The notes beneath the pieces were generated by a model that was not told the origin of the DNA, did not search any database, and saw nothing but the letters and a program-made list of their open reading frames with translations. A stretch of DNA of 64,000 bases from Rhodanobacter humi. GTDB taxonomy: Bacteria > Pseudomonadota > Gammaproteobacteria > Xanthomonadales > Rhodanobacteraceae. A program made the translations under genes and the position numbers. The stretch covers positions 3,658,001-3,722,000 of the forward strand of contig NZ_JBGBPY010000001.1 of the NCBI RefSeq assembly GCF_041107455.1, written 5' to 3'. Numbering within the stretch: position 1 is the stretch's first letter; the number at the start of each line of letters is the position of its first letter. Positions 33,451 to 37,170 of this stretch are shown here, piece by piece.

Positions 33451-34251
33451 ATGAATCGCATCGACGCCCGTTTCGCACAACTCAAGTCCGCCGGCCGCAC
33501 CGGCCTGATTCCCTTCGTCACCGCGGGCGATCCCTCACCCGAGCACGCGGTGGCGCTGATGCACGCGCTGGTCGAGTCCGGTGCCGACCTGATCGAGCTG
33601 GGCGTGCCGTTCTCCGACCCGATGGCCGATGGCCCGGTGATCCAGCACGCCAGCGAGCGTGCGATCGCCAAGGGCGTGGGGCTGGCCGACGTGCTGGGCT
33701 GGGTCGCCGAGTTCCGTCGGCGCGATGCCGACACGCCGGTGGTGCTGATGGGTTACCTCAACCCCATCGAGATCCACGGCTACGCGCGCTTCGCCGAAGA
33801 GGCCGTGCAGGCCGGGGTCGACGGCGTGCTGCTGGTGGATTGTCCGCTGGAGGAATCGGCGGTGCTGGCACCGCTGCGCGAGGCGGGGCTGCGGCAGATC
33901 CTGCTCGCCGCGCCCACCACGGCACCGGATCGCCTGGCGAAACTGTGCAAGGCGGCCCAGGGCTTCCTCTATTACGTGTCCTTCGCCGGCATCACCGGCG
34001 CAGCGCGCCTGAGCACCACGGACATCGCCGCACGCGTGGCCGATATCCGTGGCCATGCGAATGCGCCGGTGGCGGTGGGCTTCGGCGTGCGCGACGCGCA
34101 GAGCGCCAAGGCCATTGCGGGTTTCGCCGATGCGGTGGTGATCGGCAGCGCGCTGGTGGAGCGGCTGGCTGGCGCGGCATCGGCAGCGGAAGTCGCTGAG
34201 CGCGTCCGTGATTTCCTGGCGCCGATTCGCAGCGCGCTGGATGCCGGCTGA
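33451..34251 (+). CDS. trpA: Tryptophan synthase alpha subunit
   Basis: Splits indoleglycerol phosphate into indole and glyceraldehyde 3-phosphate. TIM barrel of 266 residues. The catalytic Glu and Asp are in ELGVPFSDPMADGP; phosphate-binding GFGVRDAQSAK and VVIGSALVE follow. Its start codon directly follows the right arm of the long inverted repeat and has no purine-rich ribosome site, so translation may depend on readthrough from trpB or on RNA folding. Confidence 0.95.
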   Translation: MNRIDARFAQLKSAGRTGLIPFVTAGDPSPEHAVALMHALVESGADLIELGVPFSDPMADGPVIQHASERAIAKGVGLADVLGWVAEFRRRDADTPVVLMGYLNPIEIHGYARFAEEAVQAGVDGVLLVDCPLEESAVLAPLREAGLRQILLAAPTTAPDRLAKLCKAAQGFLYYVSFAGITGAARLSTTDIAARVADIRGHANAPVAVGFGVRDAQSAKAIAGFADAVVIGSALVERLAGAASAAEVAERVRDFLAPIRSALDAG

Positions 34252-34306
34252 TCGAACAGTGCGCAGCACCACACGCCGCCGTCCGGAGCGCCCCGTCGTT
34301 CTCGGC

Positions 34307-34312
34307 TAGAAT
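34307..34312 (+). promoter_or_regulatory. -10-like element before accD
   Basis: TAGAAT at 34307-34312, 25 bases before the accD start, in the 85-base trpA-accD gap. No clear -35. Confidence 0.3.
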
Positions 34313-34336
34313 GCGCGCTTCACCAGAGGCGTCGCT

Positions 34337-35206
34337 ATGAACTGGTTGCAGAAGATCATGTCCCCGCGCGTGCACGCGCAAGGCTCCGCCGCCGGCAAGG
34401 GCAAGGTGCCCGAGGGCGTGTGGGAGAAGTGCGCGGGCTGTGGTTCGGTGCTGTACAAGCCGGAGCTGGAGCGCAACCTGATGGTCTGCCCGAAGTGCGG
34501 CCATCACCACGCGATCCGCGCCCGCACGCGCCTGCTCGCGCTGCTCGACGAGGGTTCGACGCAGGAGCTGTGGCCGAGCATGGAGGCCACCGACCCGCTG
34601 AAATTCCGCGACTCCAAGAAGTACCGCGACCGCATCGTCGCCTCGCAGAAGTCCAGCGGCGAGAGGGACTCGCTGGTCGCGATGAGCGGCAAGCTGAAAG
34701 GCCGTCCGCTGGTCGCCACCGCGTTCGAGTTCGGCTTCGTGGGCGGCTCGATGGGCTCGGTGGGCGGCGAGAAGTTTGCCCGCGCCGGCGAGCGCGCGCT
34801 GGCCGACAAGAGCGCGCTGGTGTGCTTCGCCGCCAGCGGCGGCATGCGCATGCAGGAAGGCCTGTACTCGCTGATGCAGATGGCCAAGACTTCGGCGGTG
34901 CTGGCGAAGCTGCGCGATGCCGGTGTGCCCTACATCAGCGTGCTGACCAACCCGTCCACCGGCGGCGTCTCCGCCAGCATGGGCATGCTGGGCGACATCA
35001 ACATCGGCGAGCCGAAGGCGCTGATCGGTTTCGCCGGCCCGCGCGTGATCGAGCAGACCGTGCGCGAGACCTTGCCGGAAGGCTTCCAGCGCTCCGAGTT
35101 CCTGGTCGAGCACGGCGCGATCGACATGATCGTCGACCGCCGCGAGATGCGCGACAAGCTGGCCGACCTGCTCAACCTGATGCAGAAGGCGCCGCGCGCG
35201 GCGTGA
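34337..35206 (+). CDS. accD: Acetyl-CoA carboxylase carboxyltransferase subunit beta
   Basis: Zinc-ribbon subunit of the carboxyltransferase that makes malonyl-CoA for fatty acids. 289 residues. The zinc ribbon is [12 protein letters not shown]...CPKCGHH (four Cys near residues 32-60); [17 protein letters not shown] and [12 protein letters not shown] belong to the crotonase-fold core. It follows trpA, as in many gammaproteobacteria, but folC, which usually comes next, is not here; a DnaA-box-rich stretch follows instead. Confidence 0.95.
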
Positions 35207-35228
35207 CGCATACCTGCTTCACATGCAC

Positions 35229-35250
35229 GATGCCGCCCACGGGCGGCATC
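35229..35250 (+). terminator. accD terminator-like hairpin
   Basis: GATGCCGCCC at 35229-35238 pairs with GGGCGGCATC at 35241-35250 around AC. Downstream GTCGTTTCC is only weakly T-rich. Confidence 0.6.
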
Positions 35251-35268
35251 GTCGTTTCCGTGACCGGG

Positions 35269-35429
35269 TTTTCCACAGCCGATGTGGATGCCTGCCGGAC
35301 AAAGCTGTGGACAAGCCGCGTTCACCGCTTTGGCGACAAGCACTTGGCACGCGTTGATGCATTTCTGCGCAGCGCGCGGCGCGTTTTCCACAGCGATTGT
35401 GGAAGCACATGGGCACAGCCTGTGGATAG
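35269..35429. other. Duplicated three-site DnaA-box cluster
   Basis: Six sequences with the TCCACA core of the DnaA box (TTWTNCACA) lie in this convergent gap. Module 1: TTTTCCACA 35269-35277 (+, perfect), TGTGGATGC 35283-35291 (-), TGTGGACAA 35306-35314 (-, one mismatch). Module 2: TTTTCCACA 35384-35392 (+, perfect), TGTGGAAGC 35398-35406 (-), TGTGGATAG 35421-35429 (-, one mismatch). Both modules keep 5 bases between first and second sites and 37 bases from first to third, and are exactly 115 bases apart, close to eleven helical turns. Flanking genes converge here, so a promoter role is unlikely. Confidence 0.7.
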
Positions 35430-35483
35430 GTGGCGCAAGTGCTTGAGCGCGCGGCACTGCGCGACGCGCTGCGCAGACCTTGC

Positions 35484-36041
35484 TCAGGCGAGCGCGGCCA
35501 CGGCGTGCACCAGCCACAGCGACAGCGTGCCCAGCGCGCCGCCGATGCCGATCGCGGCCAGCACGTCGCTGGGGTAGTGCAGGCCGAGGATCACCCTCGA
35601 CGCGGCGACCAGCGCGGTGAACGTCAGCAGCAGCGGCGCCAGCAGCGGATACCAGGCCAGCGCCACCACGGTGAAGCCCACCGCCTGCAAGGTATGGCCG
35701 GACGGAAAGCTGAACTCGTCCAGCGGCGGCACGTGCGCGATCACGCCGGGGCAGGCGCGGAACGGGCGCGGCCGGCGCGTGTGCCGCTTCAGCAGTCGGT
35801 AGAGCAGCAAGGCGGCCAGCCCGGTGGCGGCCATGTGCGCGGCGGCGAGCAGGCCGCGCCAGCCATCCAGCGCGACCAGCGCCAGCATCAGCGCATACCA
35901 GAACATGCCGTTGCCGAGCCGGCTGATCGCACCGAAGAACACGCCTACCGCGCGCCGCGCGCCCCAGCGGTTCGCCGCCACGCAGACGCGGCGATCGAAG
36001 GCGAGGCTTCTAGGCATGGATGGCAACGGTGTCGTGCCCAT
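35484..36041 (-). CDS. PAP2 family membrane phosphatase
   Basis: 185-residue membrane phosphatase of the PAP2/lipid-phosphate phosphatase type, acting on a lipid phosphate such as undecaprenyl pyrophosphate or phosphatidate. The three phosphatase motifs are KRHTRRPRP, FPSGH and SRVILGLHYPSD. About five transmembrane segments. ATG 36041 has GGAG 7 bases upstream and overlaps the 3' end of the glycosyltransferase gene by 32 bases; ATG 36017 lacks a ribosome site. The coupling suggests one envelope pathway. Confidence 0.87.
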   Translation of the reverse strand: MGTTPLPSMPRSLAFDRRVCVAANRWGARRAVGVFFGAISRLGNGMFWYALMLALVALDGWRGLLAAAHMAATGLAALLLYRLLKRHTRRPRPFRACPGVIAHVPPLDEFSFPSGHTLQAVGFTVVALAWYPLLAPLLLTFTALVAASRVILGLHYPSDVLAAIGIGGALGTLSLWLVHAVAALA

Positions 36042-37170
36042 GGTCGCGCTCCTCGGCCAGTTCGCGCAGCAGGGTTTCGAATTCGCGTATCACCATTTCC
36101 GGCGACAGCCGCGCCATGCTCTCGTGCGCCGCCCGGCCCATGTGGCGGATCAGGCCGGGGTTGCCCGCCAGCCTGGTTGTCGCCTCGACGAACGCGGCCG
36201 CCTCGCCGGTGGCGATGCAGTAGCCGTTGTAGTTGCTGCGCAGGTGTTCGCGCGCCGCGCCTTCGCGATAGGCCACCACCGGCAGGCCGGAGGCCAGCGC
36301 CTCCAGGATCACGTTGCCGAAGGTTTCGCTGAGGCTGGGGAAGGGGAACATGTCTGCACTGGCGATGTGTCGCGCCAGCGCCTCGCCGCGCTGCATGCCG
36401 ACGAAGATGAAGTCCGGATGTGCGGCCTGCAGCGCGGCACGCGCGGGGCCGTCGCCCACCCACACGTAGCGCATGGCCGGCAAATTTTGCTGCGCGGCGC
36501 GGAAGGCCTCGACCGCCAGTTCGAGGTTCTTCTCCGGCGCGATGCGGCCCACGTACAGCATCACCGGCGTGCTGGCGTCGACGCCCCATTGCGCGCGCAG
36601 CGCCGGATCGCGCCGGCCGGGATGGAACAGTCGCGTGTCCACTGCGCGGCGCAGCAAGCGCGCATTGTCCACACCCAGCCCGGCGAGTTCCTGCGCGAGC
36701 GCATCGGTGGGCACGAGGGTGGCGGCGGCGCGGCGATGGAAGCGGCGCAGGTGGCCGCGCACCAGCGGCGTGAGCCAGCGCAGGCCGTAGTGGCCGGCGT
36801 AGCTGTCGAAGCGCGTGTGGAAGCCGGTCGCCGCGGGGATGCGCAAGGCGTTGGCCACGCGCAGCGCCGATCCGCCCAGCGGGCCTTCGGTGGCGACATA
36901 GATCGCGTCCGGGCGCTGCTGCGTCCAGCGTTCGCGCAAGGCCTGCCCGGCCGGCAGCCCGAAGCGCAGGCCGGGGTAGCGCGGCAGCGCCACGCCGCGC
37001 GTGAACAAGGTGTCGAAGCCCGGCTCGGCCACGCCTTGCCGCGCCTGGCGCGGATGCACCACGTCGATGGAATGGCCCCGCGCAGCGAGCCCGGCGGCAA
37101 GCCCGTGCACGGTGAGCGCCACGCCGTTGATCTCCGGCGGCCAGGTTTCGCTGACGATACCGATGCGCAT
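36010..37170 (-). CDS. Glycosyltransferase family 4 (alpha-mannosyltransferase MgtA-like)
   Basis: 386-residue GT-B transferase that builds a glycolipid or polysaccharide at the cytosolic face. The N-domain begins MRIGIVSETWPPEINGVAL; the C-domain has the GT4 nucleotide-sugar site: YVGRIAPEKNLELA and the ExxxxxE in SLSETFGNVILEALASG. It resembles GDP-mannose-dependent mannosyltransferases (MgtA/PimB type). It overlaps the PAP2 gene; together they suggest synthesis of a mannosylated lipid. No -35/-10 pair is evident upstream. Confidence 0.87.
   Translation of the reverse strand: MRIGIVSETWPPEINGVALTVHGLAAGLAARGHSIDVVHPRQARQGVAEPGFDTLFTRGVALPRYPGLRFGLPAGQALRERWTQQRPDAIYVATEGPLGGSALRVANALRIPAATGFHTRFDSYAGHYGLRWLTPLVRGHLRRFHRRAAATLVPTDALAQELAGLGVDNARLLRRAVDTRLFHPGRRDPALRAQWGVDASTPVMLYVGRIAPEKNLELAVEAFRAAQQNLPAMRYVWVGDGPARAALQAAHPDFIFVGMQRGEALARHIASADMFPFPSLSETFGNVILEALASGLPVVAYREGAAREHLRSNYNGYCIATGEAAAFVEATTRLAGNPGLIRHMGRAAHESMARLSPEMVIREFETLLRELAEERDHGHDTVAIHA

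Follow-up and report, generated by a model that had tools for sequence, protein, structure and literature searches.

We found that the six DnaA-box-like sites in the gap between accD and a PAP2-family gene of Rhodanobacter humi make up two copies of an element of ∼105 bp, which has the form TCCACA-N5-TGTGGA-N17-TGTGGA followed by a conserved 3′ part. This arrangement makes the element very probably a platform for DnaA, and its features tip us slightly toward a function like that of DARS, as a DnaA-reactivation or DnaA-assembly element of variant geometry. The geometry of the element, its copy number, its conserved loci, the strengths of its boxes, and its conserved dyad are established by the sequence.

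Two copies of a DnaA-box element between accD and a PAP2 gene

The window is a stretch of 64,000 nucleotides (C1:3658001-3722000) of the 4.09-Mb chromosome. Its relevant features are as follows, in window coordinates.

34337..35206, + strand: flanking ORF, a conserved neighbor, which we take to be accD by recognition of its protein; directed toward the elements
35227..35252, + strand: perfect 12-bp inverted repeat with a 2-nt loop, between accD and copy 1
35266..35374, + strand: element copy 1, with a type A 3′ part (model R1 positions 2-110 of 112, 71.8 bits)
35269..35277, + strand: DnaA box I of copy 1, TTTTCCACA, 0 mismatches to TTWTNCACA
35283..35291, - strand: DnaA box II of copy 1, GCATCCACA, 2 mismatches; head-to-head with box I, 5-bp gap
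35294..35302, - strand: degenerate DnaA-box-like position (+22) of copy 1; TGGnnAA is kept in the families, weak in copy 1
35306..35314, - strand: DnaA box III of copy 1, TTGTCCACA, 1 mismatch
35356..35370, no strand: Fis-like dyad position (+84) of copy 1, 2 mismatches to the Fis consensus
35382..35489, + strand: element copy 2, with a type B 3′ part (R1 positions 3-110 of 112, 71.6 bits)
35384..35392, + strand: DnaA box I of copy 2, TTTTCCACA, 0 mismatches to TTWTNCACA
35398..35406, - strand: DnaA box II of copy 2, GCTTCCACA, 2 mismatches; head-to-head with box I, 5-bp gap
35409..35417, - strand: degenerate DnaA-box-like position (+22) of copy 2, from a family-level test
35421..35429, - strand: DnaA box III of copy 2, CTATCCACA, 1 mismatch
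35436..35448, - strand: IHF-like position (+49) of copy 2, CAAGTGCTTGAGC, 2 mismatches to YAANNNNYTGATW, from a family-level test
35471..35485, no strand: Fis-like dyad (+84) of copy 2, GCGCAGACCTTGCTC, 1 mismatch to the Fis consensus
35484..36041, - strand: flanking PAP2-family gene (Pfam PF01569, 67.7 bits), directed toward the elements

The original prediction had described six TCCACA-core sites (two without mismatch, two with one, and two with two), with a head-to-head gap of 5 bp, 37 bp between the starts of boxes I and III, and modules 115 bp apart. All coordinates and mismatch counts proved exact, and the spacings were confirmed, as was the orientation of accD and the PAP2 gene, which both point into the gap according to the ORF coordinates and the Pfam PAP2 match. 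The claim that all sites lie on one helix face holds for the 115-bp repeat (∼11 turns) but not for the boxes, since the starts of successive boxes are separated by 14 bp (I to II) and 23 bp (II to III). The 3′ end of copy 2 runs into the final bases of the PAP2 gene. Model R1 is a sequence model of 112 positions made from 49 copies of the window's family; both window copies are in its alignment, so that they match it by construction.

The inverted repeat at 35227..35252 is a possible stem of an accD terminator, one without a T run; it went uncalled in a terminator scan. A repeat of this kind, perfect over 12 bp, stands just upstream of elements both at the accD locus and at L003:2976-3003, and such repeats may shield the elements from read-through transcription.

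The boxes form a unit

The gap is set apart by the grouping of its boxes, not by their number. Among the 18 perfect sites of the genome, pairs less than 200 bp apart occur only in the accD-PAP2 gap and beside dnaA, where the genome has its oriC-like site (C1:2043137-2043179). An enrichment of single boxes was rejected, both for the genome (TTWTCCACA occurs 18 times, versus 18 for the control) and for the window (16 sites with at most one mismatch, versus 16.9 expected).

We then looked at the module as a whole. An 18-base module pattern with at most one mismatch matched three times in the genome, versus 0 matches for the reversed control, which also gave 0 matches over 99 genomes. The original prediction had named similar clusters at random elsewhere in the genome and a lack of conservation in relatives as outcomes that would speak against it; these counts favor the finding, as does the presence of the element at the same locus in relatives. 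The same 106 bp recur at 79% identity 79 kb away, ∼100 bp upstream of miaA, between this gene and a gene for an S46-type peptidase (both presumed from recognition of their proteins). The ∼105-bp element is present in three copies in the genome and is therefore a unit, not a chance group of boxes.

The order accD then PAP2 is common in the Rhodanobacter family. Within the genus, 13 of 15 genomes have the accD pair; of the remaining two, one carries only one copy and the other, which is 85% complete, carries none. Where the pair is present, the repeat measures 115 bp in 11/13 genomes and 116 bp in 2/13. Among 69 same-strand copy spacings below 350 bp, 36 fall at 113 to 139 bp, clustering near 115, 125, and 137, and none is shorter than 113 bp. 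A helical phasing of the arrays was rejected, as no phase holds across all 69 spacings.

Spread and fixed geometry in relatives

The window's family is that of Rhodanobacter, Dyella, and Luteibacter by inferred family placement; proteins of the genome's own miaA region are matched at 90 to 98% by Rhodanobacter records (L099 and L109). The sister family shares its sequence pattern with stretches from Xanthomonas, Stenotrophomonas, and Pseudoxanthomonas. The module pattern (at most one mismatch) was found in 47 of 99 relatives, with 42/59 genomes of the window's own family, 5/5 of the sister family, and 0/35 from the remaining families of the order.

The geometry was evaluated by a loose search of 41 family genomes, with exact boxes and with gap 1 (between boxes I and II) free at 1 to 12 and gap 2 (between boxes II and III) free at 4 to 30. 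It returned 133 matches, in which the boxes are invariant by construction because all copies were picked by exact boxes. Gap 1 was 5 in 133/133. Gap 2 took two ranges of values: 17 in 86 matches, 18 in 6, and 16 in 3 (95 in total), and 6 in the other 38. The N6 form is present as exactly one exact copy in each of 38/41 genomes, and the N16-18 form as 1 to 12 exact copies, sometimes in tandem, in 29/41; neither form is exact in 3/41. The N16-18 element is not indispensable, as 12/41 genomes lack an exact copy of it. Among gammaproteobacteria, the N17 form was found in 5/369 genomes, all from the window's family and its sister family, and the N6 form (one mismatch allowed) in 149/229, with 1 match overall for the control.

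Box strengths and an extra helical turn

Among 116 copies from the window's family, 89 have a perfect box I, 90 have a box II with two or three mismatches, and 110 have a box III with 0 or 1 mismatch; the 52 copies of the sister family follow the same strong-weak-strong trend. The N6 copies are strong-strong-weak, with box I perfect in 21/21, box II in 20/21, and a weak box III. Between boxes II and III, the position that scored best in both families was that of a degenerate box at +22 (column-permutation p of 0.002 to 0.005 in the window's family and 0.011 to 0.013 in the sister family). The simplest reading would be that the old third box decayed and that a strong box was gained one turn farther out.

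As boxes I/II and I/III are inverted repeats, the element could also be a transcribed RNA with hairpins between them. Rfam gave no notable match in 34200-36200 (best E value of 0.81), and the consensus fold consists of the box I/II stem only, with 0 pairs changed on both sides; this stem is invariant by copy selection, so the fold says little. The fixed spacings of 5, 6, and 17 and the box strengths are better explained by a protein on duplex DNA, and we hold an RNA element to be very improbable.

Conserved 3′ part

The 3′ part of the element is conserved to about +100. For motif tests at the family level, we used sets of 103, 54, 22, and 20 copies, with 67 and 46 loci hand-selected; these statistics leave out copies from L126-L164, except L141. 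The best position for the Fis consensus was +84, +83, +83, and +83 in the four sets, respectively, with p values of 0.0015, 0.0123, 0.0003, and 0 of 4000 permutations, all raw values from related copies and with two motifs tried. The best dyad centers were +91, +61 (then +90), +90, and +90, and the Fis-like dyad at about +90 from box I is carried by the N17 and N6 forms alike. In E. coli, neither DARS1 nor DARS2 shows a Fis-like site at +83/+84. Sister-family copies (e.g., in L079 and L142) have a second dyad, CCTTG...CAAGG, centered at +61, which is absent from the window's family.

Support for an IHF-like site at +49 came only from the window's family, whose unselected copy set gave a p value of 0.008, again a raw one. 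Values were 0.42, 0.34, and 0.06 in the sister family and two N6 sets and 0.13 to 0.54 in the first unsupervised split of the copies. A p value of 0.0004 in type B copies was discarded as circular, because the eye-made rules that sorted copies into types A and B include, for type B, a TGA at +55..+60, and this stretch overlaps the motif.

Model R1 aligns with N6 copies over 4 to 108 of its 112 positions at low scores (18.7 bits for the N6 copy of its own genome), and it has no match at E ≤ 1 in the E. coli DARS1, DARS2, datA, or priA stretches. Over 41 genomes, R1 gave matches at E ≤ 0.01 in 35; beyond the two families, its matches are weak (E values of 3.7e-4 to 0.009).

Genomic context and chromosomal position

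In 12 or more genera of the family, copies are located between accD and PAP2, at times with another gene between, and copy types A and B keep their order at this locus across genera. A second locus, upstream of miaA, is also conserved, and the sister family has other loci, such as the miaB-phoH gap. DnaA also regulates transcription, and the element might be a DnaA-dependent regulatory site for neighboring genes (accD, PAP2, miaA, and others), as the position of the miaA copy upstream of miaA would allow. However, the accD copies lie where two genes converge, a weak scan of 34900-35800 called no promoter-like site and no terminator, and the neighbors vary (accD/PAP2, miaA, priA at 7 kb, miaB/phoH) while the element stays constant. 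A role of this kind therefore appears quite improbable.

The N6 copy adjoins priA at 16/16 N6 loci returned for the family and at 12/30 other gammaproteobacterial loci examined (judged in both cases from 3-kb stretches, some of which are truncated where their contig ends). In the window's own genome, it lies upstream of priA at C1:2599296 (L215:5997). Priority as an ancestral DARS possibly belongs to this priA-adjacent N5/N6 core. No N6 core was seen in the E. coli priA upstream region. Cores of this type with the same dyad at about +90 stand next to priA in L165-L178, L180, L181, L195-L199, and others. In many family genomes (L216, L218, L223, L227, L234, L252, L254, and L267), one or more N17 copies are found ∼5 to 8 kb from the priA core, some with TGGGGA as box II.

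With the origin placed at dnaA and the terminus opposite to it, the window copies, which are intergenic, lie at 0.81 of the replichore, 1.65 Mb from dnaA. Positions came from 14 of 23 genomes searched for dnaA, those with both sites on one chromosome-sized contig: accD copies are at 0.57 to 0.93 of the replichore (mean of 0.75; n = 11 genomes, one with a one-mismatch copy) and N6 copies at 0.07 to 0.48 (mean of 0.24; n = 11). The position of the accD copies could be explained by accD synteny alone.

Comparison with DARS, datA, and oriC

To our knowledge, only the DARS sites of E. coli are understood in detail; there, two ADP-DnaA molecules meet at the box I/II pair through their AAA+ domains and lose ADP, and DARS2 also has sites for Fis and IHF. 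From the E. coli genome, DARS1 reads TTATCCACT-ATTCC-TGTGGATAA-CCA-TGTGTATTA, which is an N5/N6 core. In two reviews, DARS1 and DARS2 are described as sharing box spacing, with box I opposite to boxes II and III (PMC5742627), and the head-to-head pair of DARS as characteristic and essential, with box III assisting via box II (PMC10380432). The window element resembles the DARS1 and DARS2 core in having three boxes, with I opposite to II and III, and in the head-to-head I-II pair with a 5-bp gap, found in both window copies. Like DARS1 and DARS2, it is intergenic and located between oriC and the terminus (terC), with accessory DNA beside the core. Unlike them, it has its last strong box displaced outward by 11 bp, or one helical turn (N17 versus N6), a degenerate box in the gap, and a weak box II, and it is multicopy, often tandem, at other loci, and equipped with the fixed Fis-like dyad at about +90. 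Because its box II-III spacing is not that of DARS1 and DARS2, the element should not be filed as DARS. It shares the box I-II geometry and the dyad with the N5/N6 core near priA of its own genome, from which it differs by its N17 spacing, that core being a single copy with box III at N6, strong boxes I and II, and a weak box III. A search of titles and abstracts, a scope with most subscription journals outside it, returned nothing on DARS in Xanthomonas or beside priA.

The E. coli rppH-mutH gap (L045:2636-2670) contains a second head-to-head trio, TTATTCACC-N5-TGTGGATAG-N3-TGTGAAGAA, ∼300 bp from the DARS2 core, which may be among the known extra DARS2 boxes.

Strong and degenerate boxes are mixed in the window element as they are in oriC DnaA-box arrays. 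Unlike those arrays, the element has a head-to-head pair at its start, and it is beside neither dnaA nor the origin. E. coli datA, a single-copy locus that stimulates the hydrolysis of DnaA-bound ATP and has its DnaA boxes around one IHF site, is also a DnaA-box cluster away from oriC that works with IHF. The main rival explanation is that the element is datA-like or a titration site, whose boxes, with IHF, would bind ATP-DnaA and promote ATP hydrolysis or would simply hold DnaA, and so delay reinitiation; as titration sites, extra copies would be a sponge with a capacity growing as the fork passes. Such a function fits the arrays of up to 12 exact copies, the strong outer boxes, and the IHF-like site after the last box in some copies, and titration is argued to operate in E. 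coli in a recent article (PMC12371093). However, the E. coli datA stretch that we read contains no head-to-head pair with a 5-bp gap, and no datA-like box order was seen in the window copies. The accD copies as a group lie far from oriC, whereas datA acts near it (PMC4585315). Simple titration, for its part, needs no fixed geometry, yet gap 1 is invariant. We regard this explanation as rather unlikely. The original prediction had proposed a cluster of the datA/DARS type away from oriC: the DARS half gains support from the 5-bp head-to-head pair, the conserved locus, and the copy with E. coli spacing by priA in the same genome, with box III 11 bp beyond its E. coli position as the exception, and the datA half is supported neither by geometry nor by chromosomal place.

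DnaA and a possible mechanism

Domain IV of the genome's own DnaA is identical to that of E. coli at 63/94 positions and keeps R399, K415, T418, D433, H434, and T435, which we take to be DNA contacts; K443 is not kept. Hda scores above its curated cutoff, so ADP-DnaA is expected to arise. The genome has four HU/IHF-type genes, two of which read like IhfA and IhfB. The sites might be read by another protein, or the element might be a mobile repeat with incidental TCCACA boxes, which would agree with multiple, sometimes tandem copies and with a 3′ part conserved by sequence without a certain binder. Nevertheless, the box consensus is that of the DnaA box, and the DNA-reading residues of DnaA are kept; orthologous places are maintained across at least 12 genera, with the two copy types in constant order at accD, and no terminal repeats or transposase were noticed at the loci, outside any dedicated search. 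We consider both versions improbable.

For the DARS-like function that we favor, we propose that each copy would act as a compact nucleoprotein scaffold for DnaA that either derives from the DARS core or follows its plan. The strong boxes I and III would load DnaA, and we infer that the weak middle sites would be filled cooperatively. The Fis-like dyad ∼90 bp from box I, together with the IHF-like site in some copies, would bend the DNA and set the timing. The output would be the release of ADP from DnaA and thereby more ATP-DnaA for the next initiation, at a dosage set by copy number and by a place in the outer half of the replichore. Binding of DnaA and of Fis or IHF, nucleotide exchange, and timing at the element are predicted from sequence patterns.

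We also put forward, as a tentative possibility, that Lysobacterales rebuilt an ancestral single DARS-type site, kept by priA, into a second, amplified class. This class would be the four-position element with its last strong box one turn out and its Fis-like dyad at a constant place, of which genomes would have as many as 12 exact copies, often tandem, in the outer replichore half; passage of the fork would double the DnaA-reactivation dose and perhaps time the next initiation in this way.

Together, the forms make up a natural variant series, in which the box I-II pair stays constant, the last box shifts by exactly one turn, box strengths change, and copy number ranges from 1 to 12. The series would let one ask which parts of the site perform nucleotide exchange and whether site dosage and chromosomal position time replication, and the priA-adjacent N6 copy in many gammaproteobacteria would be the place to look for the ancestral site.

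N17 modules in other lineages

The N17 scan gave, among the matches listed, 119 named stretches, ∼91 from Lysobacterales by title ([Pseudomonas] hibiscicola included) and 28 others, some of which are probably chance matches or mislabeled contigs. Four stretches from Nitrospiraceae (L066, L120, L131, and L136) contain the N17 module with common neighbor genes, so outside gammaproteobacteria the N17 form is not proven to be exclusive to the two families. For two contigs titled Nitrospirae (L152) and Vibrio (L162), the neighbor genes group with Xanthomonas-type loci, and these contigs may be mislabeled. In Wohlfahrtiimonas (L071 and L115), the region between trkH and a gene for pyruvate oxidase contains an N17 match that also has a near-N6 box (TGTGCA).
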